The notes below the pieces were generated by a model that had not been told where the DNA came from, did no database searches, and saw nothing but the letters and a program-made list of their open reading frames with translations. From Streptomyces tanashiensis (GTDB taxonomy: Bacteria > Actinomycetota > Actinomycetes > Streptomycetales > Streptomycetaceae), in the NCBI RefSeq assembly GCF_014648895.1, contig NZ_BMRZ01000002.1:1-64000 (forward strand): a stretch of 64,000 nt of DNA, given 5' to 3'. Of this stretch, positions 28,118-47,181 are shown piece after piece. The first letter of the stretch is position 1; every line of letters begins with the position of its first letter. A program made the position numbers and the translations under genes.

Positions 28118-28591
28118 CAAACCCCTCCCCCGACAGCGATACGCCGGAGCAGGCTAGCCGGTGTCACCGACAGTCGAAGAGCCCTCGCTCAAGCTGCCCC
28201 AGAGAGCCGGCGAAGGACACGAGTCCAGCAGCCGGCCCGCCGCATCCTCACGACACCGAGTCGGGCTTTGTCGCAGCACCTGTCCGAAGGACGCAGGACG
28301 AGATAAGAGTCGACAGCGACGACGGGGCCGCCTGCGGGCTGCCGTTCGCTGGACCAGCGTTGGTGGGTGACGAGGCTTGTGGAGTTTCAGATGCCACTGG
28401 CAGCGGCCGCGGGGCGGCTCGAGGGTGATCGCGGACGGCGTCTGGCGCCACGGGGCGGCGGACTGCCCGAGATCGGGATGTGCTGGGCGTAGCCGTCCTC
28501 GTTCCCGCCCCGGAGGCCCGCACAATACGGCGCGGGCCTCCGTTTGGCACCGAGCCCCGCTCCCCTGCTCAGCGCAGGACAGGGCGGGTGG
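28118..28591. other. Intergenic stretch with terminator
   Basis: About 470 bp between two minus-strand genes. It contains the hairpin at 28511-28542 and, next to 28117, the promoter/RBS region of the NTPase gene. No further gene is supported. Confidence 0.45.
28511..28542 (-). terminator. Hairpin terminator
   Basis: Perfect 10-bp stem (arms CGGAGGCCCG and CGGGCCTCCG) with a 12-nt loop, 50 bp beyond the stop of the small membrane protein gene at 28592. Confidence 0.7.
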
Positions 28592-28878: not shown

Positions 28879-31800
28879 TCACGTGAACAATGATGGACAC
28901 TCGCGAACAGCCGACGCTGCGCTGTCGTCGCCGGTGGTGGAGGGCGGGCGCGAGACGAACATGTCTGCGTGCTCAGCGTCGTCGGTCCAGTACCCGTACC
29001 GGTCACCGAGCAGACGAAGCAGTGCTTCGGGTCGGAGGCTGGTGCTGCGGACGACCAGGCCGAGGTTGCCGGCTGTTGCCAGGGCTGCGCCGTGCAGGTG
29101 GGACCTGAGAGCGCTCAGCGTGAAGGCTTGGGGCGGCACGGGTTCGTCATCGGGAAGCTCGTGCGCCGTCATGACGGCCTTGAATTGGATGCGACGTTCA
29201 GCCGAGTCGTTGATAGCAGGTCGAAGTCCTCGCTGCTCAAGCCGACGGTTTCCGACGAGATTGGCGATGGCGGTCAGCAGGTGCCAGTCCTTCCACCCCT
29301 GCTCGCGTAGCAGCACCGCAGTGCGCATGAATTCCCGGTCAGCGCTCAGGCGCGGGAGCGTGTAGCGGATGATGGGGACCAGGGCGGTGTAACGGTGGCG
29401 GACGTTCTCGAGCGCGGTGCTCTGCTCGTATCCGGGGCCTGGTCCGGTCTTGGCCTTAAGGGCGGCTGACTTGGGGCGGCCATTGAGGGCTGTGGCGGCG
29501 CCGACGGCTGGTTCGGCCAGGGCTGCCATGGCTTCGTAGTCCCCCGGGTTGAGGAAGTCGGCCAGTTCGTCATAGGGGCGGCCCGCTACGAGCTTGTGCC
29601 ACAGGCCGGCGGCGAAGCTCTCCTCGATGAGCTTCGTGAACGCCTCGTTGGGCAGTAGCGACTGGGAGATCAGCACACTCACTGCTGCAGCGGTCAAGTC
29701 GTTTAGAGCTGCTTCCAGGTCCTGGCTGTCGACCGCAGCAAGTCGCAGAATCCACCGGTTGGCGTTGGGGTCGGATACTTGCCGCCAGCCGTCGTGCCGG
29801 TCGGACGTCGCTACGGTCTCGGCTTGGATCTCGACCGCAAGCCGGCCAGGCAGGAGCAGGGGGTCGCGGGTGGCCATCTCGGCGACGAGTACCTGTACTG
29901 CTGCGGTGAAGCGCTCGGCGGCCAAGGCCGATGGCCGGTCGTTGGCACAGGTGACCTCCCAGTCGACACCAAGCGCACTCCAGGTGTAGCGGCGCTTTGG
30001 GCCGGCGTCGCTGAATGGCCTGCCTACTCCTTGGGCGTCTGCTTCGTTGACGTACATGTCCTCGGTCGCGGCAGGCTCGCTGGGGATCGAGGCGACGATC
30101 TCGTCGATGGCGGTGGCGAATCCCACTGATGCCATGACTTCGCGGAGCATAGGGGCGAATCGGGGGCGTACGGCGAGCGCAGCGTTCACCGTGAGGGCCT
30201 GGTTGGCCATCATGTCCCAGACGTACGGGTAGCGCTCGGCGTTGAACGGCTCGTCGAGATAGGCATTCTGTGCCATCAGTCCGATGCGGAACAGATGGGT
30301 CGCGGACAGCCAGTTCCCGGCCTGATGGTCGTATTGGGCAGCGAGGATGATGCCTCGCGGGACGAAACGCGTCAGTTCCTGGTCGGGTGCGGACCTCGCA
30401 GCCGCGGCGGCGGCCAATGCGCATTGTTTGGCGGCCATGGCCAGGCCGAGCTCGCTGTAGATCCGTGAGCACAGCAGCAGCATCGTCAGTCCCCCTTCCA
30501 GAGTCTCGCCGCGCCACCAATTGAGCTTGGCCTCGTGAATCTCTCGCAGCGCTTCGAGGAGGCGATCGCTTTTGACCAGCGCAAGGCCGCGGGCCTGTGC
30601 TCGCTCACCTCGGGCCGACTGGCCGGCGACCCTGTCGATTGCCGTGTCGAGCAGGTCTCGGACCTCCCGGTACAGCGGGTGGTCCACCAGCGCAGGTGCA
30701 AGCAGGTCGAAGATGTCGGCGACATGCTCGACCGGGAACAGCGGGGCGTCATCCAGATGCCGCCCCAGCAGGGCCAGGGTCTGCATGCCGGTGTCGATGT
30801 CGGTGAAAGCCGGCTGGGTCTCAAAAACGGGCAGCGGTTGCCCACCTGCCATCGCCTCACGAACCCGAGCAGTGACTTCTGCAACACTTGGCAGATCCTG
30901 CGTAGCCTTTCTCAGGCCAGTAGGAACCTCCGGGTGCAGGGCCAGCCGAGCCCGCAGGGCGAGTAGATGTGCCGTGGCGTTGGGCGCGGGGCGCTCGTCC
31001 AGGAGTCGGTCGGTCTTCTCTTCCAGCTTGCGCTGCCAGTTCCGCAGTTCATCCGGGGTTACGGCGGTCAGGCCGCGCATCAAGGCCCCGAAGGTGTAGC
31101 CGAGCAGTACGACAGCATCCTCGAGCAGGCCAGGATCCTCGAGTGAGTCGTCCGTTGTCAGCCGGGTGAAGATGTCACGGGCCAAGCCGTCCACCGGCAG
31201 CATCGTCTCTAGGCCCCGGAGCGTCGCGACCACAATCTCGTAGCGGACTCGAAGCGCCGTATGTGTTCCTGGCGTAGCGTCGAGCAGAGCATGGGCGTGG
31301 CCGAGCCAGTCCGGCAGATCGGCGCGGGCTTCAGCATGGAACGTGGCGTGGCGCAGCGGCGCCTTCAGGTCGATCAGGTCACCCAGAGTGCAACCGGGCT
31401 CCTCACGCTCGCGCCACCTTTGGCGGGCCTGGATGTACCAGTCGGGAAGGTGGCCGGCCGCCTCCGGTCGGGCAGGGGCCAGGTCCGACGGCAGATGGAG
31501 GTACTGCACGGCAAGGTAGAAGAGATCGTGGTCGGCAAGATGCACAGCGAGCGCCGCAGCGTCCCAGATGTCCAGCTCAACCTGGTGCGTCCGCGCCGCC
31601 TCCTCGATCAGCTTGTGTTGCTTCCCGGAGGGGACAGGGGCCACCGTGAAGTAGATGACACGGTCGACGGCCGTGCCCTGCCCGCAGATCGACGAGAGGT
31701 CCTTAAGGATCTTCGCCGGCACCTTGGTCTTCTGGATGGTGCAAGCCATCACCACGCGCTCCGTTGAAGCCAATGCTTCGAAGACCGAGGTTCCCGGCAG

Positions 31801-32013
31801 CTCGCGTGGAATGTTCGTCCAATGGCTCTCAGCGTCTCGCCCCTGGTCGCCGCCGCTGCTGACAGGGCCGGTCGCAGGGTGCAGATTGCTGGTGATCCGC
31901 CGGCGTGCCAGGCCGAGGCACAGCAACTCGAACTCGTGGTGGCTGTTGTTCTCGGCGAGAGTATCCAGTGCGAACCGGATCCGTCGCTCGAGTTGCACGG
32001 CATCGTCCGCCAT
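28879..32013 (-). CDS. Large protein with nuclease-like N-terminus, possible defence effector
   Basis: 1044 aa; GTAGAGG precedes ATG. The first 160 residues resemble a PD-(D/E)XK (Mrr-like) domain: a helix with Glu27/Glu29 (HEFELLCLGLA), then PVSSGGDQGRDAESHW (Asp56, Asp60), and 35 residues later the strand VVMACTIQKTKVPAKILKDL. The order fits, though the Q-x-K spacing is not classical. The rest is mostly helical, TPR-like (MLLLCSRIYSELGLAMAAKQ, YDHQAGNWLSATHLFRIGLM), with no P-loop. I infer a sensor/effector of an anti-phage system. It starts 134 bp after the end of the transposition ATPase gene on the same strand, so it may be cargo of the CRISPR-linked element. Confidence 0.6.
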   Translation of the reverse strand: MADDAVQLERRIRFALDTLAENNSHHEFELLCLGLARRRITSNLHPATGPVSSGGDQGRDAESHWTNIPRELPGTSVFEALASTERVVMACTIQKTKVPAKILKDLSSICGQGTAVDRVIYFTVAPVPSGKQHKLIEEAARTHQVELDIWDAAALAVHLADHDLFYLAVQYLHLPSDLAPARPEAAGHLPDWYIQARQRWREREEPGCTLGDLIDLKAPLRHATFHAEARADLPDWLGHAHALLDATPGTHTALRVRYEIVVATLRGLETMLPVDGLARDIFTRLTTDDSLEDPGLLEDAVVLLGYTFGALMRGLTAVTPDELRNWQRKLEEKTDRLLDERPAPNATAHLLALRARLALHPEVPTGLRKATQDLPSVAEVTARVREAMAGGQPLPVFETQPAFTDIDTGMQTLALLGRHLDDAPLFPVEHVADIFDLLAPALVDHPLYREVRDLLDTAIDRVAGQSARGERAQARGLALVKSDRLLEALREIHEAKLNWWRGETLEGGLTMLLLCSRIYSELGLAMAAKQCALAAAAAARSAPDQELTRFVPRGIILAAQYDHQAGNWLSATHLFRIGLMAQNAYLDEPFNAERYPYVWDMMANQALTVNAALAVRPRFAPMLREVMASVGFATAIDEIVASIPSEPAATEDMYVNEADAQGVGRPFSDAGPKRRYTWSALGVDWEVTCANDRPSALAAERFTAAVQVLVAEMATRDPLLLPGRLAVEIQAETVATSDRHDGWRQVSDPNANRWILRLAAVDSQDLEAALNDLTAAAVSVLISQSLLPNEAFTKLIEESFAAGLWHKLVAGRPYDELADFLNPGDYEAMAALAEPAVGAATALNGRPKSAALKAKTGPGPGYEQSTALENVRHRYTALVPIIRYTLPRLSADREFMRTAVLLREQGWKDWHLLTAIANLVGNRRLEQRGLRPAINDSAERRIQFKAVMTAHELPDDEPVPPQAFTLSALRSHLHGAALATAGNLGLVVRSTSLRPEALLRLLGDRYGYWTDDAEHADMFVSRPPSTTGDDSAASAVRECPSLFT

Positions 32014-32147: not shown

Positions 32148-32960
32148 TCAGCGCGGTGCTGGGAGGCGGGTGGTGGAGTCGAGGCGGCTGAAGGCCCATC
32201 GGATGAGGTCTTTGCTGAGGGTGAGGTCGGGGTTCTCCTCCAGTGCGTCGGTGAGGTGGATGGTGAGTTTGGCCCAGTTCCTGAACGATCCGTGTCCGGC
32301 GTGGTCGTCGGTGTAGAGGATGAGGTCGGGGTCGGCGCCGGTCCAGATGGGGTGATAGGCGGGGATGGTGGCGAGGACTTCGGTGGGGGTCAGGGGTGCG
32401 AACTGGTACCAGTCGAGGATGCGGGAGTGCAGGGCCGGGCAGCTGAGGATCTTCTGGCGGGTGTTGCCGCTGCCGACGAGGACGACCGCGGCACGCCGTG
32501 CGTGGTCGCCCCACAGGTCGCGGATGTATTCGAGAGCGGTCTTGCTGAGCCATTGGACTTCGTCGAGGAGGAGGACCGCGTCGGGGCTCTGCTCCAGGGC
32601 TTGCTTGATGCGTATACCGGACTCGTCAGCGGACTGGGGTGGCTCGCCGGGAAGGTCCAGGGCGCGCCAGAGGGCGCCGCGGAGTTCGCTCATGTTGGGT
32701 GCTTGGCGGAATTGGAGTCGGTGGGTGGTGTGGGGGGCGCGGCGGCGTAGGGCGGTGTGGACGGCGAAGGTTTTTCCGAGGCCGACGTGGCCGTGGATGG
32801 CGACGATGGCTTTGTGCTTGATGGCTTTGCGGATGCGGTCTTCGGTTGCGGCGAGGGCTTGGGTGCCCATGGTGTGGGCGCCGGTGAGGCCGATGTAGTG
32901 GTCGCGGTCGGGTGGGGGGAGCTGGCTGGGGCGGCGTTGGGGGTTGTGGGGCTGGTTCAC
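32148..32960 (-). CDS. TnsC/MuB-type AAA+ ATPase (transposition regulator)
   Basis: 270 aa from GTG 32960, whose first bases overlap the TnsB-like stop (GTGA). Walker A GHVGLGKT at residues 57-64 and Walker B AVLLLDEVQW with Asp133/Glu134. Sensor-type residues follow in RAAVVLVGSGNTRQKIL. This is the AAA+ subgroup of TnsC, TniB and MuB, which polymerise on target DNA and activate the DDE transposase. No TniQ-type target adaptor is present. It is the last gene of the operon cas8e-cse2-cas7e-cas5e-cas6e-TnsB-TnsC. Confidence 0.85.
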   Translation of the reverse strand: MNQPHNPQRRPSQLPPPDRDHYIGLTGAHTMGTQALAATEDRIRKAIKHKAIVAIHGHVGLGKTFAVHTALRRRAPHTTHRLQFRQAPNMSELRGALWRALDLPGEPPQSADESGIRIKQALEQSPDAVLLLDEVQWLSKTALEYIRDLWGDHARRAAVVLVGSGNTRQKILSCPALHSRILDWYQFAPLTPTEVLATIPAYHPIWTGADPDLILYTDDHAGHGSFRNWAKLTIHLTDALEENPDLTLSKDLIRWAFSRLDSTTRLPAPR

Positions 32961-34510
32961 GGGTGGTCCTGTTCGTTGTTGGGTTCCGGGTGGGTGGGGG
33001 TGTTGAGGGGGCGGGTCCAGTCGTCTGCGGGCTTTGGCAGGGGCAGGAGGTCGGGCAGGGCCTGGTCGCGCAGGTCGTGGCCGCCGAGGTCTCTGAGGTG
33101 TTCCAGGGCGGTGTCTTCGGTCATGGCGAGAAGAGGGGTGGGCGGCTGGGGCTGGGTGGCGGCGGCGTAGCGGATGTTGCGGTTCTTCTCGGCTTTTTTG
33201 AGCTTGGCGCGCAGGCGGTCGGCTTCGCGGCGTTGGGCTCGTTTGAGGTCGCGGATCTGCTGGGGTGTTGCTTGGTTGGCCATGAAGGCGGGTCCGAGGT
33301 GGTGTCCGCTGGTGGGGTCGTAGAGCTCGACGCGGTGGTCGTGGTGGGGGAGGTAGCGCAGGGTGACTTTGTCGCCGACGAAGCCGTGCATCCAGTCGGC
33401 GATGTAGTCGGCGTTTCGCCAGCGGATGCCGGTGTTGTTGATGGTCAGGGGCTTGCCGTGGCGTTCGAGGGTGTAGGTGTGGAGGCTTGCGGCGTCGATG
33501 GTCTCGATAGGGGTGGTGTCGTCGTTCCACGCTTGGGCGGGGGTGCGGCCGTCGAGGCTGTCCAGGGTGTGTTCGTGGTTCCACCAGTGGATCCAGGTGC
33601 GGACGTGGGCGACGAACGCTTCGAAGTGCAGGAGTGGCTGGTCGGGGTCGACGGGTTTGCCGCCGAGGAGGGTGGGGGCGTGGGTGTAGCCGGGCATGCC
33701 GGCGAACAGGGTTTTCTTGATGGCGCCGTTGACGGCTTCGACGACGGGTTTGCCTTCGGGGGTGAAGGGGGGCAGTTCGATGCGTTCGGTGCCGAGGACT
33801 CCGAGTGCTTCCCCGACTGTCTTGCAGAGGAATTCCTTGCCGCCGTCGACGCGGACGCGGTCGGGGATGCCGCCGAAGGGGCCGTGGTCGTCGTCGATGA
33901 GGACGGCGTCACGGATGGCGACGAGGACTGCCTCGCGGCTGGGCCGTTGGGGGGTGATCGCGAAGCCGCAGATGGCGCTGGCGGCGCAGTCTGCGAAGAA
34001 GGTGATCCAGGGTTTGCGGATGTGGCCGTCGATCCGGACACGGACACTGGCTTCGACGTGGTCGGTTTCCCATGCGTAGTTGCGGTGGTGGCGGGGGCGT
34101 TTGCCGGCGACGTCGTAGGCGCGACGGGCTTTCTCGCCGTGGCGTAGGCCGGCGCGCATGCCGGGTGTGAGGGCGCGGGTGACGGCGCGGTGGAAGGTGG
34201 CTGGTGAGGGCAGGTTCGGGGTGTTTTCGGCTTTGAGTTCTCGGTAGGCGGCGGTGGCGTTGCCGCGCCAGCGTGCGACTGCGTCGAGCATCACGAGGGT
34301 GAGCTCGAAGCGCTGGCGGGCGGTGGGGGTGTAGGTGCCTTTGTTGGTGCGGGCGTTGGCGAGCCACCGGTCGACGGTGCGGGGGTCGACGCCGAAGGCG
34401 TCGGCGACGCCGGTGATGCGGGCGCGGGTGAGCTGGTGTTCGTCGGCGAGTTTGAGGAGTCGGCGTACGGCGGTGGTCCGCAGGGCGGTGATGTCGGGGC
34501 TGGGATTCAT
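32957..34510 (-). CDS. TnsB/Mu-type DDE transposase
   Basis: 517 aa. N-terminal HTH domains (RARITGVADAFGVDPRTVDR; SPATFHRAVTRALTPGM), then an RNase H-fold core with a clear DD35E triad: Asp150 (WETDHVEAS), Asp222 (RVRVDGGKEF) and Glu258 (GKPVVEAVNGAIKK). A Mu-C-type beta-barrel follows (KVTLRYLPHHDHRVELYDPT), then a basic coiled coil (KRAQRREADRLRAKLKKAEK) and a tail that may contact the ATPase. All parts of an active transposase are present. It begins 27 bp after the cas6e stop on the same strand, at the place where cas1 normally stands in type I-E operons. Confidence 0.88.
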   Translation of the reverse strand: MNPSPDITALRTTAVRRLLKLADEHQLTRARITGVADAFGVDPRTVDRWLANARTNKGTYTPTARQRFELTLVMLDAVARWRGNATAAYRELKAENTPNLPSPATFHRAVTRALTPGMRAGLRHGEKARRAYDVAGKRPRHHRNYAWETDHVEASVRVRIDGHIRKPWITFFADCAASAICGFAITPQRPSREAVLVAIRDAVLIDDDHGPFGGIPDRVRVDGGKEFLCKTVGEALGVLGTERIELPPFTPEGKPVVEAVNGAIKKTLFAGMPGYTHAPTLLGGKPVDPDQPLLHFEAFVAHVRTWIHWWNHEHTLDSLDGRTPAQAWNDDTTPIETIDAASLHTYTLERHGKPLTINNTGIRWRNADYIADWMHGFVGDKVTLRYLPHHDHRVELYDPTSGHHLGPAFMANQATPQQIRDLKRAQRREADRLRAKLKKAEKNRNIRYAAATQPQPPTPLLAMTEDTALEHLRDLGGHDLRDQALPDLLPLPKPADDWTRPLNTPTHPEPNNEQDHP

Positions 34511-34537
34511 GGCAGAGGTGTCGTCCCTCGGGCTGGG

Positions 34538-35188
34538 TTAGGCGGGTGCGAGGGAAAGGAGGCCGGCGCCGTAGGACTTGGCGCGGCCGATGCCGGTGGT
34601 GAGGGCGGTGGCTAGCTGGGTGGGGTCGGTGATGCGGGCGAGGCCGTCGAACTGGGTCAGGACGGCGTGGGGGCTGGGGGTGTCGTTCTTGCGGGGGAAG
34701 CGGCGGGGGGTGGGGGTGGCGTCGATGGTGAGCAGGTGCAGTCCGGCTGCGGTGGCGCGGCGCTGCCACCAGGTGATGGCGTCGTCGCCGGTGAGGGGGG
34801 TGAGTTTGCCGCGGGTCTTGCCGGTGACGGGGTGGGGGGTGGCGTGGGCGGTGAGGGAGGCGACGGGGGCGGCGGTGATGCGGTAGCGGACGGTCAGGCC
34901 GGTGCGCAGGGCGTTGAGCAGGGGGGTGAGGCTGCGCATCTGGTGTGTGGCGTAGCCGTGGGGCAGACGCGCGGGGTCGGGCTGGTGGTGGCTTTGGATG
35001 AGGAGGGTGGGGGTGGGGTGGGTCTCGAGGCGGAACAGCAAGCCGGCCTGGGCTCTGGGGGTGGGGCCGAGGGTGTCGGGGACGAGACGCATGAGGGTCT
35101 TGTGGAGGCTGACGGCGTCTTTGAGGTCGGCGCGGGCGGTCTTGTGGTGGGGATTGAGTGTGAGGAGCGTCAGGGTCGGCGCGGTCAT
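34538..35188 (-). CDS. cas6e: Cas6e, CRISPR RNA endonuclease
   Basis: 216 aa from ATG 35188, overlapping the cas5e stop (ATGA). Two ferredoxin-like halves; the N-terminal helix carries a candidate catalytic His29 in KDAVSLHKTLMRLVP, and the C-terminus ends with the glycine-rich loop GIGRAKSYGAGLLSLAP that marks Cas6e. It cuts the pre-crRNA at the repeat hairpin and stays bound to the 3' handle in Cascade. The array repeats at 47613 have the short GC hairpin that Cas6e recognises. The frame extends upstream in the Arg/Pro-rich shadow, which is not part of the gene. Confidence 0.95.
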   Translation of the reverse strand: MTAPTLTLLTLNPHHKTARADLKDAVSLHKTLMRLVPDTLGPTPRAQAGLLFRLETHPTPTLLIQSHHQPDPARLPHGYATHQMRSLTPLLNALRTGLTVRYRITAAPVASLTAHATPHPVTGKTRGKLTPLTGDDAITWWQRRATAAGLHLLTIDATPTPRRFPRKNDTPSPHAVLTQFDGLARITDPTQLATALTTGIGRAKSYGAGLLSLAPA

Positions 35189-35979
35189 GGTCGTCCTTGG
35201 GCGATGTAGGTAGCGAGGGCGTCGATGGGCCGGGGGCCTGCGTAGAGGGATGGGGGCAGGTTTTCGGTAGTGATCCACAGGGGGCGGGGTAGGTGGCGCC
35301 GGTTGGTGGGGGTGAAGTCGACGGGTTCGCTGGTGCTCTCCCGGTCCGGCAGACCGCTTGCGTACGCGGTGTCGGTGGGGCGTTCGTGGACGAACGTGAC
35401 GGGCACGTGGGTGGCGTCGTCGGCCGGCGGTGCGGGCAGGGTGAGGGGCACTTTGTTGCGGAGCTCGCCGGCGGGGTCGGTGCTGTGGGTGGCCAGGACG
35501 AGCGGGGTGTCGGGCGGGCAGGCTCGGCGGCCGAGGTAGATGCCGAAGGCGGGGTGCTCGAGTGCGTCGGCGATGTGGTCGAGGAGCGGCCTGGGTCCTT
35601 GGACGGCGAGCGTGAAGACGGCGCCGGCGAGGTAGGTGCGGTGGGAGACGAGGGTGGATTTGGCCTCGCTGCGTCTGCCGCCTTCTGCGGTGTGCAGGCG
35701 CTGTTCGGGTGGGTATCCGCCGCCGACGGTGTGGAAGTCGTGGTGGAGGGTGCCGGGGCTGTCGATGCGGATGGTGAAGGTCAGGTCGTGGTGGCTCGGG
35801 CTGCCGGGGAGCTGCTGGTAGGGGGTGAGGGCTTCTTCGCGGCTGCGGCCGCCGGCTGCGGCGAACATGCCGATGAGGGCGGAGCGGGTGGGGAAGGCGG
35901 TGGTGTCGCGGTGGTGGAAGACGCCGCGTTCGCCCCATGCCTGCTGTAGGCCGGCCAGGCGCAGGATGAGCCCGGTCAC
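35185..35979 (-). CDS. cas5e: Cas5e, Cascade subunit
   Basis: 264 aa from GTG 35979, overlapping the cas7e stop by 4 bp. Starts LILRLAGLQQAWGERGVFHH, the usual Cas5e opening where the crRNA 5' handle is bound, followed by PTRSALIGMFAAAGG, a conserved glycine-rich segment, and DFHTVGGGYPPEQ. The long upstream part of the frame (to 38184) is a shadow of cas7e and cse2. Length is typical for Cas5e. Confidence 0.95.
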   Translation of the reverse strand: MTGLILRLAGLQQAWGERGVFHHRDTTAFPTRSALIGMFAAAGGRSREEALTPYQQLPGSPSHHDLTFTIRIDSPGTLHHDFHTVGGGYPPEQRLHTAEGGRRSEAKSTLVSHRTYLAGAVFTLAVQGPRPLLDHIADALEHPAFGIYLGRRACPPDTPLVLATHSTDPAGELRNKVPLTLPAPPADDATHVPVTFVHERPTDTAYASGLPDRESTSEPVDFTPTNRRHLPRPLWITTENLPPSLYAGPRPIDALATYIAQGRP

Positions 35980-37130
35980 CGGGTGGGGGTGGGGGTGAGG
36001 GCCGCTTGGGCGCAGGCGGTGGCGAGGTCTTCGAAGGATTGATGGTGGGTGCCCAGGGGGTCGAGGGGCTTGTCGAAGCTGGTGTGGCCGTGGGCGATGC
36101 GGCGGCGGGTGCCGACGAGCCGGTCGATGGTGGTGGCGTAGTCGGTCAGGGTTTGGCGGGCGGTCAGGGTGTAGCCGCCTTGGGGTGCGGCTTTGACGGG
36201 CTGTTCGAATGCGGCGCCGTAGGAGATGGGGCGGCTGTCGCGGACGACGTAGTGGACGAGGTCGGGGATGGTGTGTGGGGCGGTGGAGGTGGCCTTGGCC
36301 CGGGGCATGCTCATGATGAAGTGCCACGTGTACAGCTCGATGAGCTCGGCGAGGGTGCAGGTGCCGTCGGTGTGGTTGCGCGCCAGTTCGGTGATGTTGA
36401 CGGTGGAGTAGCGGTAGAACAGGCCGCCGGTGAGGTAGGCGGTCTGCAGGTGGGCGCTGCCGGGCTCGTCGGGCTGGGGCCAGTCCTCGACTGTGGTGAA
36501 GAAGTCCGGCTGGGGGTCGCTGGGGTGGACGGTGAAGGCGGGGGCCATCTGGACGGCGGCTTCGACGTGGCCGCTCGGGAGTTCGGCGAGCATGCGCCCG
36601 AGCAGGCTGATGCTCGCGGTGCGGCGGGTCAGCTGGGCGGCGATCGCTTTGGCCGGCAGGACCGGGGCGGGGGTCTTTTTGGTGGTGGAGGCGGTGTGGT
36701 CGGCCAGCGCCTCTTCGAGGTCGGGGCGGTGGGTTTCGCACAGGGTGACCAGGTCGTCGACTGCGTCCTTGGGGAGGTAGAGCATGGCCTGGGTGCGGTA
36801 CTGCTCGTTCGCGTTGTGCTTGAGGCCTTTGTCCTTGGCGGACAGGACGATCTGTGCGGAGGTGAAGGCGGCCAGGTCGTCGGGCCATCCGGCTTCGCGC
36901 AGCCGGTCGGCGACGACGATGGGTACCAGGCGGGTGCGGGCGGCAGGCTCGTCCAGGTCGCGTTCGACACCGAGGCGGATCTGCCGCTTCCACGACTGGC
37001 TGGACACCATCGCGCGGATCGCGTTGCCGACGAGGATGGTCTTGGGTTCCTGGTTCTCGTCCCGGTTCAGGTTCGCTGGAGTGACGGGCTGCAGAATGTG
37101 CAGGTCGAGAAAGCGGGCGGGGGTATGCAC
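35976..37130 (-). CDS. cas7e: Cas7e, Cascade backbone
   Basis: 384 aa. The opening FLDLHILQPVTPANLNRDEN and GNAIRAMVSSQSWKRQIR are diagnostic of Cas7e (Cse4/CasC); later segments include RRTASISLLGRMLAELP, YRYSTVNITELARN and FIMSMPRAKATSTAPHTIPD. Six copies would form the Cascade filament on the crRNA spacer. 135 bp separate it from cse2; that gap holds a perfect 9-bp hairpin at 37160-37179. Overlaps cas5e by 4 bp. Confidence 0.97.
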   Translation of the reverse strand: MHTPARFLDLHILQPVTPANLNRDENQEPKTILVGNAIRAMVSSQSWKRQIRLGVERDLDEPAARTRLVPIVVADRLREAGWPDDLAAFTSAQIVLSAKDKGLKHNANEQYRTQAMLYLPKDAVDDLVTLCETHRPDLEEALADHTASTTKKTPAPVLPAKAIAAQLTRRTASISLLGRMLAELPSGHVEAAVQMAPAFTVHPSDPQPDFFTTVEDWPQPDEPGSAHLQTAYLTGGLFYRYSTVNITELARNHTDGTCTLAELIELYTWHFIMSMPRAKATSTAPHTIPDLVHYVVRDSRPISYGAAFEQPVKAAPQGGYTLTARQTLTDYATTIDRLVGTRRRIAHGHTSFDKPLDPLGTHHQSFEDLATACAQAALTPTPTR

Positions 37131-37159
37131 GAGGGGGTCCTTTACTGGGTGCCAGGGGG

Positions 37160-37179
37160 CACGATCCGGTCGGATCGTG
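37160..37179 (-). promoter_or_regulatory. Hairpin between cse2 and cas7e
   Basis: CACGATCCG, two-base loop GT, then CGGATCGTG: a perfect 9-bp stem in the only sizeable gap inside the cascade operon. It may be an mRNA-processing or attenuation point that sets the higher dose of Cas7e, or an operator for a promoter upstream of cas7e. Confidence 0.45.
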
Positions 37180-37265
37180 GTGCTGAGCAGGGCGATGCCA
37201 CTTGGCCGCTCCGAGGACGGCGCTGGCGGCGGGTGAGGGGCGATTACCCGGGGCGGGGCCGCGGT

Positions 37266-37916
37266 TCAGGTGCGGCCGGGGGTGTTGAGGCTGAGGTAGA
37301 AGGAGTCGCGCCAGCGCAGTGCGACCGTGTCGCGCTGGTAGGGCCGCTGGATGAGGTCGTTCAGCAGCACGGCCCAGTCGGGGGTGAGGCCGTCGCCGAG
37401 GAGTCGGGTGATGTAGCTGGGCAGGCGGCGGTGGACCTGGTCGTCGCCGAGGCGGGTCAGGACATGGAGTTGCTCGCCGGTGCGTTCTTCGCTGTGGCCG
37501 CGGGTGTTCACGGCGGCGGCAAGGGTGGCGCCGAGGTTGGGGCGCTTGACCCAGTCGGTCGCCACGGCAGCAGTCAGCGCGACAGGGGTGATGGCGGGAG
37601 CATCGGATACCACCGGCAGGCCGCTGATGTCCTGCGGCCGGCCTGCGGAGGCGGCCGGGTGTGGCGGGTGGAGGCGGACGCCGGGGGTGTGGACCGCGGG
37701 ACCGGCCAGGGCGATCAGGCCGGCGATCGTGTAGTGGGCGCGTCGGCCGGGGCGGCCGGCGGTACTGCGGGTGAGGTAACGGTCCATGAAGCCGCACTGT
37801 TCGACCGGGCGTCCTCGGCCCTTGGCCAGGGTGGTGCGAATGCCGGGGCTGGTGCACAGATCGTGGATGTGGACGACGAAGTCGTCGTAGCGGGCGCGGT
37901 GTTCGTCCGGAGTCAT
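37266..37916 (-). CDS. cse2: Cse2 (Cas11e), Cascade small subunit
   Basis: 216 aa from ATG 37916, overlapping the cas8e stop (ATGA). Helical Cse2 pattern: RARYDDFVVHIHDLCTSPGI, then RYLTRSTAGRPGRRAHYTIA and a C-terminal RLPSYITRLLGDGLTPDWAV followed by RDTVALRWRDSFYL. Two copies normally stabilise the R-loop in Cascade. Slightly longer than the usual 160-200 residues, with a His/Pro-rich loop in the middle. Confidence 0.93.
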   Translation of the reverse strand: MTPDEHRARYDDFVVHIHDLCTSPGIRTTLAKGRGRPVEQCGFMDRYLTRSTAGRPGRRAHYTIAGLIALAGPAVHTPGVRLHPPHPAASAGRPQDISGLPVVSDAPAITPVALTAAVATDWVKRPNLGATLAAAVNTRGHSEERTGEQLHVLTRLGDDQVHRRLPSYITRLLGDGLTPDWAVLLNDLIQRPYQRDTVALRWRDSFYLSLNTPGRT

Positions 37917-39481
37917 CGGTGGCTGCTCTTTTTGGGCGGGAGGTCTTTGCTGCGGAGTGTTCGGACGGCGATGGCGACAGCGCGGGCGGCCTGCTGGTTG
38001 CGGGCACGCGCGGTGCGGGTGGCCTGTCTGAGGGCGGTTGCTGCCTGAGGCGCGAAGGCACGGTCGGCGGGGGTGTCGTCGTTGAGGATTTGCCAGAAGG
38101 CGGTTTCGGCAAGGGGCCAGTACAGGGCGGCGGCTTTGGTGGCCCACACGCTGGCCTTGGGCTTGCGCCGCTTGGCCGGGTCACTGTCGTTGCGGGGTGT
38201 GGTGGTGTCGGCCCATGCCTGATCTGCGGCCTGGGTCAGGCGGAGGGCGAAGTCTTCTGCGGCCTGGCAGCACTCGGCGATGCGCTGTGCCCGGGCGGGG
38301 TCGTGTTCCTGGGTCCACGCCCACACAGGTGGGGTGAGGGCCGTGTACCACTGGCGGTTGTTGACCTTGCCGTCCTGGTCGAAGCCGTGGACGCGGACGC
38401 GCAGGGTGCTGCGCACGTCGGCTGGGAGGTCGTTGAGGGTGTCGAAGACTTCGGGGCGCCGCTGGGTGCGGTGTTCGTCGGGTGCGAGGAGCAGGCTGTC
38501 GAGTTCACGCCACCAGGCGCGCTGTGCGTCGGCGCGGCGGGCGGTCCGGCGTCTGTCGACCGGCTTTTCGGGGTCGATGCGGTAGACGAGGTAGGGGTCG
38601 GTGGCCTCGAGTCTGGGCTGCTGGGTGGACCAGGTGATGTAGGCGTCGGTGACGGTCTCCTGGTCGTCGCCGGGCACTAGGAGGACGGCGTGGCGTGAGC
38701 GGCCGGTAAGGATCCGGCCTGGCCAGGTGACTGGGTGGGGGTTTGCCGCTGGGTCGTCGGGCACGTGTTCGTCTTCCCAGGGGCAGGTGTCGGCCAGGAG
38801 CTGCTCGTCGCCGAGGAATTTGGGCAGGCCGGCGAGGAGGGTCTCGTGGAGGGTGCGCCCGAGGGGGTGGAAGGAGACGGTGGCGCGCAGCGGTCCGCTC
38901 GACAGCGTCCTGCTGGTTGTGCTGTTGACGGTGCGGGGTGTTCCGGTCCCGGATGGGCCGTAGAAGTGGTGGATGAGGAGGTATTGCAGGGCCTGGCCGG
39001 TGGGCAGGGGGGTGGCGAGCTCGTGGTGGTGGGGGCTGAACCAGGCGAGGTTGTTGCCGCCGGGGCGTCCGGGGGTGAAGCGGTTGATGCCTTCGGTGCG
39101 GGTGCACTGGTCGGGCAGTCGGGGGTCTTGCAGCCAGGGCCGGGTGGGGTGGAACACGTCGAAGTGGTGTCGGTCGAAGTAGGCGTGGACCGCTTTGGGG
39201 TCGAAGGCGCCGCGTGCGAGTGCTTCGCGGCGTAGGCGGGTCCACTGCGTGGCGGTGAGGTCGGGGTTATCCAGGCCGGTGATGCGGGCGGTGATGGCGA
39301 CGGCGATCCGCAGGAGGGCGGATGCCGCTGGCGGGTACGGGACGGCCAGGTCGTCGATGGTGTGGGCGGTCAGGAAGAGGTCTCTCAGGCCGGTCGTGTC
39401 GTAGCGGTGGCCGGTGCGGACGTCGATCCAGGGGTGGTCGGCGGCGCTGAGGGAACGGGTGGGTGAGGGTATGGAAGGCAT
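37913..39481 (-). CDS. cas8e: Cas8e (Cse1), Cascade large subunit
   Basis: 522 aa from ATG 39481; the ribosome binding site is weak. Family features: N-terminal HPWIDVRTGHRYDTTGLRDL, YFDRHHFDVFHPTRPWLQDP, the loop NRFTPGRPGGNNLAWFSPHH, and a four-helix bundle at the C-terminus (RIAECCQAAEDFALRLTQAA ... AFWQILNDD). In type I-E, Cas8e reads the PAM and recruits Cas3. It starts a coupled series of seven genes. The 370 bp upstream of it, before the cas3 stop, contain no gene and could hold a separate promoter. Confidence 0.95.
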   Translation of the reverse strand: MPSIPSPTRSLSAADHPWIDVRTGHRYDTTGLRDLFLTAHTIDDLAVPYPPAASALLRIAVAITARITGLDNPDLTATQWTRLRREALARGAFDPKAVHAYFDRHHFDVFHPTRPWLQDPRLPDQCTRTEGINRFTPGRPGGNNLAWFSPHHHELATPLPTGQALQYLLIHHFYGPSGTGTPRTVNSTTSRTLSSGPLRATVSFHPLGRTLHETLLAGLPKFLGDEQLLADTCPWEDEHVPDDPAANPHPVTWPGRILTGRSRHAVLLVPGDDQETVTDAYITWSTQQPRLEATDPYLVYRIDPEKPVDRRRTARRADAQRAWWRELDSLLLAPDEHRTQRRPEVFDTLNDLPADVRSTLRVRVHGFDQDGKVNNRQWYTALTPPVWAWTQEHDPARAQRIAECCQAAEDFALRLTQAADQAWADTTTPRNDSDPAKRRKPKASVWATKAAALYWPLAETAFWQILNDDTPADRAFAPQAATALRQATRTARARNQQAARAVAIAVRTLRSKDLPPKKSSHR

Positions 39482-39852
39482 CGGTGTTTCGTCAGGGTGT
39501 GCGGGATCGATGACGGGATACAGCAACGAAGGGGGCGCCTCTCCCCCGGTGCCCGTGAGGGCATGGCGCGCCGGCTGGGGCCGGGGGTGTGCTGAGGTGT
39601 GGTCGCACCGATGGCGGGCCATGCCGTCATGGCCGGTGGGAGAACCGGGGAAGGCGGCTGGCGGGTTCGCGTCACCAGGCAGGTGGTCTCGTCAACTTCC
39701 TTGTGGGATAGGCGAGTTACTGCCGGGTGTTTGCGGTGGCGGGTGCGTTGCAGTAATCGAATCACCGGGACATTCGTGCGAACAAATCCTGAGATAGTCC
39801 GGTGATCAACTGCTGTCCGTATGTGATCGACGCCGACGGGGGGTGTGACGGG
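39482..39852. promoter_or_regulatory. Gap between cas3 and cas8e, possible cascade promoter
   Basis: About 370 bp without a gene. It is the largest gap between cas genes and more AT-containing (39680-39800) than coding DNA, so a separate promoter for cas8e onwards is likely. I cannot point to a certain -10/-35. Confidence 0.45.
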
Positions 39853-42771
39853 TCAGTGCTGGTCACGGCGATGAACGAGGCCGAGTTCGGCGTCCATGCG
39901 CAGCTCGTAGTGGCCAGTTCTGTGTAGCTCGTTCGGGTGATCCGGATCAGTGGGGAGCAGGATCGTGTCGGCGAGCAGGGCGTGGCGCTGCCAGCTGGCG
40001 GGGGGCGCGGTGCGGGGGTGTGGGCGGGTGACCCATGCGGCGGGAACGGGCAGCGAGTGGGCGAGGATGCTGCGGACGTCGCCGGGGGTGAGGCTGGGTT
40101 TGTCGGGGAGCGGGTGCCGGCCGTCGGGGTCGAGGGTCCAGGTGCCCTGGGGTGTTCGGTAGCAGGGGACGAGGCGGCGCGGCATGGTTCCCAGGCGGGT
40201 TGCGGCCTTGGCGGTGGTCAGGTGCTGGCGGTGGAGGTCTGCCAGGGACGACACCCGTGCGGGGGGCGGGATGAGGTGGACTGCGCCGGTGTGGAGCTGC
40301 CGGTCGGTTCGCGCGTGGTGGCCGGAGAGGAGGCGCTGCAGGGTGTCGGTCTCGGCGGCGAAGGCCGAGTCTGCGCCGTGGACCTGTTCGACGAGGTCCT
40401 GGACGTCGTCGGGAAGGGTGAGTGTCGTGAGGGCCCGGGTGGTCAGCAGGTGGGCAGTGGCGTGCTGGGTGACGGCCGGCTCGACGCTGCCCCATCCGGG
40501 CGGCAGTGCGGTGGCGCCGCGGACATTCACCGGGTGCAGCACGGTGAGCGTCGGGCCGGCGGCCTCGTCCCACCAAGGCGGGCGCCATCCTTCCCGGCCG
40601 GCCCACAGGTGGGTGAAGCGGCCCAGACGTCCCGCGCGCTGCATGAGGCGGCCGATCGAGGCGAGGTCGCTGACCATGAGGTCGACGTCGATGTCGAGGC
40701 TCACGTCGAGGAGGCTGGTGGTCACCACGACCAGACGCCGCGGCCTGGGTCCGTGCTTGCCGAGCCGGTGCCGCAGCCGTCGGATCGTGCGCTCGCGCCG
40801 GTGGTCCTCATGCCGGGCATGGAGCAGGACGAGGTCGTCGGCAGGCCCCTGCCACCGGTGGCGGAGGAAGGTGTAGGTGTCCTGCGTGTCGGCGACGGTC
40901 GCGCACACCACCGCCACACAGCCCGAACCGCTCTCGAGGACGGGTGCGAGCGCGGCCTCGACGGCAGCGAGTCTCTCCCCTTCCTCGATGGGGCGGCCCG
41001 GCTGGCCGAGGCGCCGGTAGGTGACCGGCACGGTGCTGATCCTGACGCGGCGGCGGTGCGCGGCCGCGTGCTCGTCACGGGCATCCTTGTCCATGTGGTG
41101 GGCGGTGGCACTGTCCGCGTCGACGAACACCCATCCCGGATATCCCGGATCCCAGGACTTGCCGCGAAGTGTGCGGGGTGTGTGGCCGGCGCCGGTCAGG
41201 TAGGCGCGGATCAGGTCTCTGCTGGTCGAGGCCGGCAGCGTCGCGGACAGCAGCACCACCGGGCAGCGTAACGCCCCGAGCCAGTTCAGCAGACGGCGCA
41301 ACTGCAGCTGACTGAACGGCTCCAGCGCGTGTGCTTCGTCGACGACGACGGTCTTGCCACAGATCCCCAACATGCGCAGCGCGTTGAACCGGACGGGCAG
41401 CACCGCCATCTGGGCCTGGTCGACCGTGGCGACCGTGAACTGCGCGAGCAGCGCGCGGTCCCATCCCCGCTGCCACGAATCCGGCACCGGCCCCTTCGCA
41501 GGGACACCACCTCCGGTGGGATCGCCGTCCGCCTGGGTGGCTGGGCCGCTCCCTGGGCCTTGCGGGTCTTCCGGGCCGTCGGGGCCGTCGGGGCCGTCGG
41601 GGCCGTCAATGACCGATCCGCCATCGTCGGCCAGCGCGGGGTCGGGGTAGGCATCGCTCAGCCACTGGCCGCTGTGCACGACAGCGGTCGGTACCCGCTC
41701 GGGCCCGTGGGCCCGCACGTAGCGGTCGAGGCGCTCGAAGGCGGCGTCAGCGGTCGCGGTGGTCGGCAGCAGCCAGAGCACACCGTTCGTGCCGCACTCT
41801 GCGTTGAAGATCCGGGCCATCTCCAGGCCGTTCACGCTCTTGCCGCTTCCCGTGGCGTCGGTGACCACCGCGATACCGCTCCCCCGCTGCCGCACCCACC
41901 CGGGCAGCTGCTCCAGCACGGAAGCCTGCAGCGTGTTCGGGCCCGCAACACCCTCGTGCACCGTCGCGAAAGCGGCCCGGGGCAGGGTGATCCGGTCAAG
42001 ACCCGCCCGCTCGACCGCTTCCCACGTCAGCTCCCTGACACGGGCGGCATGCTCGAAGGCCCCGAACGACACGGTGTTGGCCAGGGGTATCCAGAACCGG
42101 CGCCGGCTCACCAGCCGGTCAGCCATCATGACGAGCCCGGCAATCAGGACGGCAGCCTCTGCCGAGAACTCCTTCGAGGCTTCCTCAACCTCAAAGATGT
42201 GCCACATCAGGCGGGTGTAGCGCCGCCGCAGATCCCGCCACAGCGGCCCGCCCAACGACGCCTCCATTCGCCCAGCCGACGCGCCCTGGTCAACATCGAT
42301 CTGCAGGAACCGTCCATGGTGCCCGCCGAGAACCTGCGCCCCGCGTACCGCAGGAGAGTCGTTCCCCTCCCGGGCGAAACCCAACTCCTCCAGCAACCCC
42401 AGCCCGACATGCATCGACGCCCGCGCATGCGAAACCTCCACCACCCGCCCCATATCGCCGAGCAGGTCCTCCCCCAGCCGGCGCATCGCAGCAGGCACGT
42501 CACACTGGAAGCAGGGAATCAACTTGCCCACATCGTGCTGCGCCGCAAGGAACGCCACCACCTGACGTGCCCTCGACTCGCTCTCACCGAGACCGTCGGC
42601 GATCTGAGCACGCTGGCTCGGCGACAGGAACCGGTCCCACAGAGCCTCCGCCGCAGCACCGGCATCGATCTGGTGAAACAACAACGGATACACGGCGCCG
42701 GTCAGCACATCGAACTTCCCCCACGGCGCCTGATCAATCCCAGCGAGCCGGCCGTCTTCAAGAACACTCAT
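39853..42771 (-). CDS. cas3: Cas3, HD nuclease-helicase
   Basis: 972 aa. HD nuclease: His33 (LLFHQIDAGAAAEALWD), His79-Asp80 (FLAAQHDVGKL), LGGHHGRF, and the ADRLVS helix. SF2 helicase: P-loop DATGSGKS near 305, DEAH box VVVDEAHAL, LLSATLP, the motif V region TSLLDVSLDIDVD and motif VI QRAGRLGRF. All catalytic parts appear present, so it should nick and degrade targets. A low-complexity insertion of repeated Gly-Pro-Asp (DGPDGPDGPDGPEDPQGP), encoded by tandem 9-bp units near 41575-41610, sits inside the helicase. Presence of a complete Cas3 next to TnsB/TnsC is unusual, because CRISPR-associated transposons lack it. Confidence 0.96.
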   Translation of the reverse strand: MSVLEDGRLAGIDQAPWGKFDVLTGAVYPLLFHQIDAGAAAEALWDRFLSPSQRAQIADGLGESESRARQVVAFLAAQHDVGKLIPCFQCDVPAAMRRLGEDLLGDMGRVVEVSHARASMHVGLGLLEELGFAREGNDSPAVRGAQVLGGHHGRFLQIDVDQGASAGRMEASLGGPLWRDLRRRYTRLMWHIFEVEEASKEFSAEAAVLIAGLVMMADRLVSRRRFWIPLANTVSFGAFEHAARVRELTWEAVERAGLDRITLPRAAFATVHEGVAGPNTLQASVLEQLPGWVRQRGSGIAVVTDATGSGKSVNGLEMARIFNAECGTNGVLWLLPTTATADAAFERLDRYVRAHGPERVPTAVVHSGQWLSDAYPDPALADDGGSVIDGPDGPDGPDGPEDPQGPGSGPATQADGDPTGGGVPAKGPVPDSWQRGWDRALLAQFTVATVDQAQMAVLPVRFNALRMLGICGKTVVVDEAHALEPFSQLQLRRLLNWLGALRCPVVLLSATLPASTSRDLIRAYLTGAGHTPRTLRGKSWDPGYPGWVFVDADSATAHHMDKDARDEHAAAHRRRVRISTVPVTYRRLGQPGRPIEEGERLAAVEAALAPVLESGSGCVAVVCATVADTQDTYTFLRHRWQGPADDLVLLHARHEDHRRERTIRRLRHRLGKHGPRPRRLVVVTTSLLDVSLDIDVDLMVSDLASIGRLMQRAGRLGRFTHLWAGREGWRPPWWDEAAGPTLTVLHPVNVRGATALPPGWGSVEPAVTQHATAHLLTTRALTTLTLPDDVQDLVEQVHGADSAFAAETDTLQRLLSGHHARTDRQLHTGAVHLIPPPARVSSLADLHRQHLTTAKAATRLGTMPRRLVPCYRTPQGTWTLDPDGRHPLPDKPSLTPGDVRSILAHSLPVPAAWVTRPHPRTAPPASWQRHALLADTILLPTDPDHPNELHRTGHYELRMDAELGLVHRRDQH

Positions 42772-44143: not shown

Positions 44144-45252
44144 TTGATCTACTGCGGCATCGACTGGGCCGAGAGGACACACGACGTTGCCTTGGTCGAC
44201 GACACCGGCCAGCTACTTGCGAAGCGACACATCACCGACGACGCGGCCGGCTACAGGAGCCTGATGGACCTGCTCGCTGAGTACGGCGACACGGAGGAGA
44301 CCCCGATCCCGGTCGCGATCGAGACCTCCCGCGGTCTGCTGGTCGCGGTGCTGCGGGCAGGCAAGCGGAAGGTGTTCGCGATCAACCCGATGGCTGCCGC
44401 CCGCTACCGCGACCAGCACGCGGTCTCCCGCAAAAAGTCCGACCCCGGCGACGCCCTGGTCCTGGCGAACATCCTGCGCACGGATATGCATGCCCACCGG
44501 CCGCTGCCGAACGACAGCGACCTGGCCCGCGCCATCGCCGTACTGGCCCGCGCTCAGCAGGACGCGGTCTGGAACCGGCAGCAGGTCGCCAACCAGCTTC
44601 GCTCGCTGCTGCGCGAGTACTACCCCGCCGCTCTGGAGGCCTTCGCCAAGTGGGACAACGGCTTGTGCCGACCGGAGGCCCGCGAGCTGATGAAGCTCGC
44701 GCCGACACCGGCCAAGGCTGCGAGCTTGACTCGCACTCAGATCACGTGTCGCGCGGCGGCTCTCAAGCGTGCGGGCCGCAAGCGCGGCATCGAGGCGGAC
44801 GTCGAGCGGCTGCGCGGGGCATTCCGCACCGACTGGGCCCGTCAGCCCGAGCTTGTCGAGGATGCGCTCGGCAAGCAGACGCTCGCCCTACTTGGACAGC
44901 TCACGGCCGCCTGCACCGCAGCCGCCGACCTCGCCCAGGCCGTCGACGAGGCGTTCCCGCAGCACCCGGACTCCCCGGCAAGAAGTCCAGCATCACCAGA
45001 CGATGGGTGAAGAACAACCGGCTCAACCACGCCGGCTACCTCTGGGCGTTCTCAGCGATCACCGCCTCGCCCGGTGCCAAAGCCCACTACCGGCGGCGAC
45101 GTGACGACCACGGAGACTGGCACGCTGCTGGCCAGCGCAATCTGTTCAACCGGATGCTAGGCCAGCTCCACCACTGCTTCAAGAACCGCCGCCTGTTCGA
45201 TGAGCACACCGCGTTCCCGGCACCGCAGGTCCCAGCACTGGCGGTGGCGTAG
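44144..45252 (+). pseudogene. IS110-family transposase with internal deletion
   Basis: The first frame (TTG start, GGAGGAAAG upstream) gives a good IS110 DEDD N-terminus, IYCGIDWAERTHDVALVDD, with SRKKSDPGDALVLANILRTD, up to HPDSP near 44980. From there another frame continues with GKKSSITRRWVKNNRLNHAG and the normal C-terminus ending at 45252. The part between (normally about 50 codons with the FPGLG and ARGLKAYAG motifs and the catalytic Ser region) is gone, with loss of frame. Inactive remnant. Confidence 0.88.
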
Positions 45253-46175: not shown

Positions 46176-46901
46176 TTCACGGGGCTGAGCCCGCGCTGCT
46201 TCGGCAAACTTCTGACCGCGCTGCGGCGCGATGGAGCAGATGCAGTCCACCGAGGCTGGCCGTGGAGCCTGCCGCTGGAGGACCGGGTATTGCTGGTCAC
46301 GGCCTATTGGCGTACCAATCTGACGTTGCGGCAGCTCGCTCCGCTGTTCGGCGTCTCGAAGTCCACGGCTGGCCGATTCATCAACCACCTCAGCCCCCTG
46401 CTCGGGCTCCGGCCCCGCAAGCGGTTCGCCAAGAACACTGTGCTCATCGTGGACGGCACCCTGGTCCTCACCCGGGACCAGACCATCGCGGAGCGGTCGA
46501 AGAACTATCGGTACTCCACCAACCATCAGGTCGTCATTGATGCCGACACCCGCCTGATCGTGGTGGTCGGTCGGCCGCTCGCCGGGAACCGCAACGACTG
46601 CAAGGCGTGGGAGGAGTCCGGTGCCAAGGCCGCCGTCGGCAGGACCCTCACGATCGCCGACGGCGGCTACCCGGGCACCGGGCTCGTCATCCCGCACCGC
46701 CGGCAGCGTGGCCAGACCGAACTCCCAACCTGGAAAGAGGATCACAACAGGTCCCACAAGCAGGTGCGGGCACGGGCCGAGCACGTCTTCGCCCGGATGA
46801 AGACCTGGAAGATCCTCCGCGACTGCCGCCTCAAAGGCGACGGCATCCACCACGCCATGCTCGGCATCGCCCGGATGCACAACCTCGCCCTCACCGGATA
46901 A
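46176..46901 (+). CDS. IS5-type DDE transposase, 5' end unclear
   Basis: Homology begins near 46176 (FTGLSPRCFGKLLTALRRDG), but no ATG/GTG/TTG occurs in frame until TTG 46290, and a TGA stands at 46155, so the start may be lost or reached by frameshifting. The body is well kept: LRQLAPLFGVSKSTAGRFIN (HTH), then VLIVDGTLV (first Asp), TIADGGYPGTG (second Asp) and RARAEHVFARMKTWKILRDC (Glu). An IS inverted repeat follows 55 bp downstream. IS5 superfamily, DDE_Tnp_4 type. Confidence 0.82.
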   Translation, partial: FTGLSPRCFGKLLTALRRDGADAVHRGWPWSLPLEDRVLLVTAYWRTNLTLRQLAPLFGVSKSTAGRFINHLSPLLGLRPRKRFAKNTVLIVDGTLVLTRDQTIAERSKNYRYSTNHQVVIDADTRLIVVVGRPLAGNRNDCKAWEESGAKAAVGRTLTIADGGYPGTGLVIPHRRQRGQTELPTWKEDHNRSHKQVRARAEHVFARMKTWKILRDCRLKGDGIHHAMLGIARMHNLALTG

Positions 46902-46976: not shown

Positions 46977-47131
46977 TCTCGTCCCCCGCGTCCGCGGGGG
47001 TGCTGCGGCCTCCGCCTTCCTCGTCCGGCGGTGGAACTTCTACGCCCTGTGCAAGCAGGGGTGATCCCTTGCCAGGGTGTGCGACCGTCCCGGACTACCA
47101 AAGCCCTACACAAGCAGGGGTGCTCCGGACT
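46977..47131 (+). CRISPR. Short degenerate CRISPR array
   Basis: Three repeat-like units at 46977, 47040 and 47099 (spacing 63 and 59 bp, close to the 61 bp of the main array), containing CCCCCGCGTCCGCGGGGG, CCCTGTGCAAGCAGGGG and CCCTACACAAGCAGGGG. A fourth, poorer unit may start near 47154. The array begins 7 bp after the IS inverted repeat. Repeats are more diverged than in the next array, suggesting an old, non-renewed array. Confidence 0.75.
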
Positions 47132-47181
47132 GCCGGACGTGGTCGTGGTAAATCCAAGCCCTACCACCACGTGAATGGGGG

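Follow-up and report, generated by a model that had tools for sequence, protein, structure and literature searches.

A TniQ-free type I-E CRISPR–transposase system in Streptomyces tanashiensis, with guides that match telomere genes

The window analysed here, the first 64,000 nucleotides of contig NZ_BMRZ01000002.1 of Streptomyces tanashiensis (assembly GCF_014648895.1), carries a type I-E CRISPR (clustered regularly interspaced short palindromic repeats) effector operon that runs directly into a tnsB–tnsC transposition pair. Seven genes, all on the minus strand, follow one another in the order cas8e-cse2-cas7e-cas5e-cas6e-tnsB-tnsC: cas8e (37913–39622, start uncertain; Cse1, E 3e-61), cse2, or cas11e (37266–37916; Cse2, E 3e-9), cas7e (35976–37130; Cse4, E 1e-83), cas5e (35185–35979; Cas5e, E 5e-42), cas6e (34538–35188; casE, E 2e-13), a TnsB-type DDE transposase of 517 amino acids (32957–34510; Mu-transpos_C, E 3e-10; D150, D222, E258) and a TnsC-like AAA+ ATPase of 270 amino acids (32148–32960; AAA_22, E 8e-17; Walker A GHVGLGKT, Walker B LLLDE). 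Reading frames overlap by 4 bp at cas8e/cse2 (37913–37916), cas7e/cas5e (35976–35979), cas5e/cas6e (35185–35188) and TnsB/TnsC (32957–32960), and 27 bp separate cas6e from TnsB. A preliminary description of this DNA had given the same gene order, overlaps and gap, all of which are borne out by the coordinates and family matches. Its seven genes were named correctly, while two components were overlooked: cas3 (39853–42771, minus strand, HD residues and helicase motifs intact), which lies directly upstream of cas8e and makes the operon longer than described, and a CRISPR array at about 46979–48501. The best solved relative of the transposase is entry 7svw, named TnsB (E 1e-10), which we take to be the TnsB of a type V-K CRISPR-associated transposon (CAST).

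The cas6e-tnsB-tnsC junction recurs in at least 23 genomes, a count in which genomes presumed to be the same (for example G246 and that of locus L006) are entered once; genomes with the junction are called carriers below. Related TnsB proteins were found in 114 of 394 family genomes, part of which were checked for cas genes, and among the loci examined the cas6e-tnsB junction is present in 12, including the genome of the window, with G135 as a thirteenth. Seven named Streptomyces loci with the complete operon came from a contig scan, two plasmid records carry the junction in their NCBI annotation, and a search of 392 genomes of the window's genus added G701, G494, G597 and G475, the last of which showed cas6e, tnsB and tnsC with no cas3 seen. 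In a maximum-likelihood tree of 69 TnsB sequences, all 22 cas-linked rows (G194 appears twice) form one clade with support 100/100, whose sister group is cas-less TnsB, many of them from chromosome ends. In a quicker tree that includes the later finds, all 27 cas-linked rows fall together on one side. Every row of the first tree (22 of 22 cas-linked and 47 of 47 others) retains the DDE triad, and, as in CASTs generally, Tn7-like TnsB and TnsC occur with intact catalytic residues.

The cas-less tnsB-tnsC pairs resemble the cas-linked ones in their sister TnsB (best 42–47% identical), in the same DDE residues and in the terminal position of many of them. They differ in having no adjoining cas genes, in often standing two in tandem and in being themselves among the spacer targets described below. 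Many linear chromosomes and plasmids of Streptomyces carry such pairs close to both ends (L009–L016, L059–L067, L129–L148), often adjoining the terminal helicase gene.

The transposon end is a conserved segment of about 235 bp immediately to the inward side of the array; in the window it lies at 48565–48819 on the plus strand and finishes at 48819 with the terminus ...GTGAGACTCAGCA. It contains inverted repeats resembling TnsB sites, of the TTCTCAC...GATGTCA type in one orientation and GACA...GAGA in the other, and its termini read GTCAGCA, CTCAGCA or TCGCA. A sequence-only model of this end, R1, was built from 16 ends and used at a threshold of E 0.01 or better. It matches 34 of 388 family genomes, comprising all 12 carriers of the first set (nine of which are training rows) and 22 of the 376 others; the carriers recovered from outside the training rows are G145 (E 6e-5), G161 (E 6e-6) and G095 (E 3e-6). 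Mirror copies of the end occur near both chromosome ends in G103, G194, G161 and G701 (in G103 at 44480 and, mirrored, at 9691586 of 9736065), suggesting that the element there runs from near the telomere to a single end. A telomere-like match at window position 7936 is weak, with three mismatches, and was taken as chance. In two genomes the interval between cas3 and cas8e holds part of the end in inverted orientation (G200:C1:50495-50616 and G256:C1:5578943-5579060), which could be an operator of the operon bound by TnsB.

Neither Cas1 (PF01867) nor I-E Cas2 (PF09707) has a match anywhere in the S. tanashiensis genome, and its one copy of TniQ (PF06527) lies outside the window, on contig C11, which upholds the earlier statement that cas1, cas2 and tniQ are missing from the window. 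Among the 20 window proteins scanned with Pfam, a subset of the open reading frames, no TnsA family was found, although TnsA was not searched by family. Cas1 is present in 5 of 19 distinct carriers tested, a set that excludes four later-found carriers, and I-E Cas2 in 8 of 23. TniQ occurs in 5 of 12 carriers and nowhere in the other 7, and its copies lie outside the element wherever the relative position could be told. Both the cas1–cas2 pair of canonical I-E immunity and the TniQ adaptor of CASTs in general are thus missing from this system. One genome, G394, in which no cas1 was found, has a cas2 match (G394:C47:33062-33265) beyond the element end at 32242, at a distance of about 0.8 kb.

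The array of the window is separated from cas3 by two insertion sequences, one IS110-like (44144–45010) and one of the DDE_Tnp_1 family (46290–46901). It consists, on the plus strand, of a short sub-array of degenerate 29-nt repeats on the cas3 side (46979–47127) and a main array of about 15 repeats with mostly 32-nt spacers (47613–48501). Two window spacers are identical (47642–47673 and 47764–47795) and those at 47948–47979 and 48318–48349 are near copies, pointing to duplication of units inside the array. Degenerate repeats are general: nearly every repeat differs in most carrier arrays (22 of 22 in G378), with less degenerate exceptions in G141 (7 variants in 11 repeats), G135 (4 in 6) and L003 (8 in 11). 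In contrast, three cas1-bearing arrays of carrier genomes have two or three variants in 15 or 16 repeats each. Altered versions of the same spacers stand in the same order in G396, G246 and G378, and 149 of 197 spacers are exactly 32 nt long, the other 48 having other lengths.

Spacers of these arrays match genes of Streptomyces telomere regions. Matches were scored as identities minus mismatches, with a cut-off of 22. The 313 raw spacer strings were reduced to 246 by dropping pseudo-spacers at long gaps and array ends, strings outside 26–36 nt and a decayed G194 copy, and to 192 by removing the halves of long gaps; no array was found for G161, and G145 and G095 were not included. At the cut-off, the telomere regions (0.63 Mb) are matched by 27 of the 192 spacers (16 arrays) and the mid-chromosome core (0.40 Mb) by none of the 192, a comparison between chosen telomere regions and a small core control rather than a genome-wide share. 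Controls gave 2 telomere and 0 core matches for reversed spacers, and none in either set for shuffled spacers or for 47 spacers of cas1-bearing I-E arrays. A laxer score of 20 gave 39 telomere and 7 core matches. Among 36 spacers of held-out arrays (G701, G597, G494 and one plasmid), 9 matched in the telomere regions and 1 in the core; some of these spacers are common to G494 and the plasmid, and a fifth held-out region, on a S. cadmiisoli plasmid, gave no array.

Across all fetched loci, 41 of 246 spacers match outside arrays, their targets being TnsC (11), the terminal helicase (9; presumably ttrA), the telomeric sister TnsB (3), Tpg (2), Tap (2), a larger TnsB of 709 amino acids (9) and others (5), with Tpg and Tap assigned by NCBIfam equivalog models. 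The count for the 709-residue TnsB depends on loci L107 and L108, which had been picked out by a pattern derived from a spacer, and is therefore circular; the gene is not shown to be telomeric, and neither locus is in the 0.63-Mb or 0.40-Mb comparison set. Within the window array, spacer s15 (48380–48411, plus strand) matches telomeric helicase genes, at best over 29 of 29 aligned bases, and has the protospacer-adjacent motif (PAM) AAG at three of four distinct sites. Spacer s16 (48441–48472, plus strand) matches helicase genes that lie towards the ends of plasmid records and chromosomes in Streptomyces, with PAM AAG at both distinct sites of the fetched loci. Its targets include ten listed Streptomyces plasmid records (H51–H60), nine of them with the gene within 3 kb of the record end, and the single one of these records that was opened is linear. 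Spacer s13 together with part of the next repeat (48254–48299) matches a GNAT acetyltransferase gene in three Streptomyces plasmid records, about 26–30 kb from the start (E 9e-7). Among phages, no spacer match was better than E 0.9. Plasmid matches of 44–46 nt had suggested that target homology reaches into the repeats, an idea left unsupported by 28 spacers (0.34 over the first 12 nt against a null of 0.29).

In 34 best protospacers the PAM is mostly AAG or AAC: A stands at −3 in 30 and at −2 in 31 of them, and −1 is occupied by G (20) or C (10); AAG and AAC together make up about 1.6% of positions in eight target genes. When the seven spacers matching the 709-residue gene are left out, the commonest PAM is still AAN, in 24 of 27. 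The seed is also kept, mismatches falling at 9 of 272 bases in positions 1–8 against 93 of 816 elsewhere (p 2e-5). Inside positions 1–8, mismatches further avoid positions divisible by three (1 of 68, compared with 54 of 272), where the wobble phase is assumed rather than measured for each gene. Owing to related spacers, neither set of mismatch counts is fully independent.

The Cas3 of the window retains HD residues H33, H79, D80, H115, H151, H152 and D218, within the stretch that aligns with solved Cas3; the Cas3 proteins of G494 and G597 are likewise nuclease-intact. In G103, G399 and G400 all the listed HD residues are replaced, and in G701 all except the aspartate of the HD pair, yet these four keep the helicase motifs GKS, DEAH, SAT and QR-GR in open frames of 978–1003 amino acids. 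They form one TnsB subclade (local support 0.993), and their arrays still match telomere genes, those of G701 at low scores of 22–23. The loss of the HD residues together with retention of the helicase fits guidance rather than cleavage in this subclade. Searches of 35 and 70 genomes from the genera of G103 and G145 revealed no new nuclease-dead carriers, and the 392 genomes of the window's genus yielded one, G701.

Sixteen flanks, including G340 (not a known carrier), G395 twice and a weak G397, were compared with telomere-region reading frames. The end abuts a truncated telomeric tnsB in G285, G103 and G400 and tap in G396; the flanks of G200 and G397 start no more than 50 bp from telomere-region frames of no known function, and the remaining flanks have no telomere-region gene at the junction. 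A further end, that of G701, abuts telomeric tnsC. On contig C141 of G400, which we treat as one element with C136, a protospacer with PAM AAG and a match at 31 of 32 positions lies 40 bp beyond the end and turns its PAM-distal side towards it, which is the geometry of known CASTs. This protospacer corresponds to a spacer found in G396, G378 and G597. On the lost side of the junctions there is no match at a CAST-like distance for G285, G103 or G396; matches on that side lie elsewhere, with spacer s11 of G103 15 bp beyond the G400 junction and one spacer 114 bp away for G103.

Next to tnsC, possible cargo includes a large KAP-type NTPase (25367–28120) and a protein of 1044 amino acids with no Pfam or NCBIfam match (28879–32013), and a macro-domain protein lies at 18943–19878. 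Elsewhere, an operon of this type on a S. cadmiisoli plasmid has a gene annotated DprA after its tnsC (L206, 16820–17920), and the right chromosome end of G194 (L058) holds a decayed second operon with broken cas3 and tnsB frames, the better-kept copy being at the opposite end.

The I-F3, I-B2 and V-K CASTs combine TnsB and TnsC with a guide complex, lack adaptation genes and have guides to conserved genes. The system described here shares these traits and differs in that no TniQ lies in the element, Cas3 is present and one end is found instead of two. Systems of the present type are in print: the passages of PMC12231136 that recount Faure 2019 describe Streptomycetaceae I-E loci with tnsB and tnsC replacing cas1 and cas2, propose an alternative adaptation module and report no terminal structures. 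Those loci have the same gene set (cas3-cas8e-cse2-cas7-cas5-cas6 with tnsB and tnsC), whereas we find a conserved end and guides to telomere genes. PMC12669027, in its passage citing Hsieh et al. 2025, describes I-E5 as a CAST without TniQ that is tied to telomeric transposons and has an active Cas3 HD domain, and PMC11656645, where it touches on the subject, lists I-E among the captured subtypes. The window system is almost certainly a further member of the I-E5 class: its I-E Cascade genes and Cas3 form one operon with tnsB and tnsC, the element has no TniQ and the Cas3 HD is intact. The type I-E effector with Cas3, the lack of TniQ and the telomeric link agree with the I-E5 account in PMC12669027; the HD domain described there as active differs from the four genomes that have lost its residues. 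The preliminary description presented a TniQ-free I-E link as new, which these sources overtake. What is added here is the conserved end, the telomere-gene spacers with PAM and seed, the ends inside such genes and the HD-dead Cas3 subclade, and these may overlap with Hsieh 2025. A literature search found no report of an HD-dead Cas3 in I-E tnsB/tnsC systems or telomeric CASTs, with Hsieh 2025 and Faure 2019 themselves outside that search.

Taken together, the findings describe a TniQ-free I-E5 CRISPR-transposase, and we consider it likely that its CRISPR RNAs guide TnsB and TnsC so that the element inserts into telomere genes on linear replicons of Streptomyces. The preliminary description had the right reading in an I-E CRISPR-transposon module without TniQ; RNA-guided insertion itself we infer from the guides, ends and target genes. 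In the proposed mechanism, Cascade bound at telomere genes would recruit TnsC without TniQ, and TnsB would join the element's one end to the target. The telomere would serve as the other boundary, so that the element takes over the replicon end. The window Cas3, with its nuclease residues kept, may also destroy targets, and interference may thus act beside guided insertion. For the HD-dead subclade we propose, tentatively, that Cascade and Cas3 serve purely as TniQ-free guidance, landing the element inside rival telomeric transposase genes and capturing the chromosome end; its three ends with readable flank all lie in rival tnsB or tnsC, one of them 40 bp from a protospacer. We prefer guided insertion as the mechanism on the grounds that guides, ends and target genes agree and that the nuclease-dead subclade persists.

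Several observations weigh against guided insertion. The preliminary description had proposed a search for CRISPR RNA matches beside insertion points. Only at the G400 junction does a protospacer lie at the distance seen in CASTs; the available part of the G400 array does not show the corresponding spacer, and no other examined junction flank has a spacer match near the end. Since each kb of tnsB has a few known sites, the 40-bp match in G400 could be chance. In the telomere regions used, 165 of the 192 spacers have no target at score 22, and the Cas3 HD residues are intact in most carriers examined. The end match lies about 150 kb from tnsB or on another contig in G161, G145 and G095, and G135 has the operon without an R1 match. 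In the window itself, no telomere was recognised at the contig start and no recognised telomere gene lies in the flank.

Some of these points would suit a different role, in which Cascade and Cas3 are weapons that cut rival telomeric transposons and linear plasmid ends, TnsB and TnsC choose targets otherwise and CRISPR is a defence between elements. The intact HD and helicase motifs in the window and most carriers examined agree with such a weapon, as do targets that are competitors' tnsB and tnsC and telomere genes. So does the finding that no spacer of seven carriers has an AA-PAM target in its own flanking sequence once the array is set aside (best match 24 of 32 in G256, with PAM GCA). However, G103, G399, G400 and G701 have lost the HD residues and still keep helicase motifs and matches to such genes, and the spacers common to G396, G246 and G378 persist in order, unlike a fast-changing defence array. 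We regard inter-element defence as unlikely. Still less probable, and to our mind improbable altogether, is the proposal of Faure 2019, as relayed in PMC12231136, that TnsB and TnsC are an alternative spacer-acquisition module replacing Cas1–Cas2. It accords with tests that found no cas1 in 14 of 19 distinct carriers and no I-E cas2 in 15 of 23, with the clean PAM and with some variation in spacer length (48 of 197 are not 32 nt). Against acquisition stand the uniform length of the other 149, the drift of the repeats (all 22 in G378) where each of the three cas1-bearing arrays has two or three variants, the colinearity of old spacers and the conserved transposon end, contrary to the reported lack of terminal structures. 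That an unrelated transposase pair landed by chance behind a Cascade operon, an idea that has nothing for it beyond the odd pairing and that the preliminary description would have recognised by a single junction with its own ends between cas6e and TnsB, can be dismissed because the same junction, for which that description proposed a wider search, recurs in at least 23 genomes with one TnsB clade and conserved DDE and Walker residues, and the end lies beyond the array.

If Cascade loads TnsC without TniQ, CASTs can connect guide to transposase in a simpler way than has been assumed, and a helicase may replace the adaptor. Lineages with intact and with dead nuclease exist side by side, making the role of Cas3 directly testable. 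Guides to tap, tpg, the terminal helicase and rival transposases would, if guided insertion is true, imply a contest among transposons in which RNA guidance serves to capture the ends of linear bacterial chromosomes.

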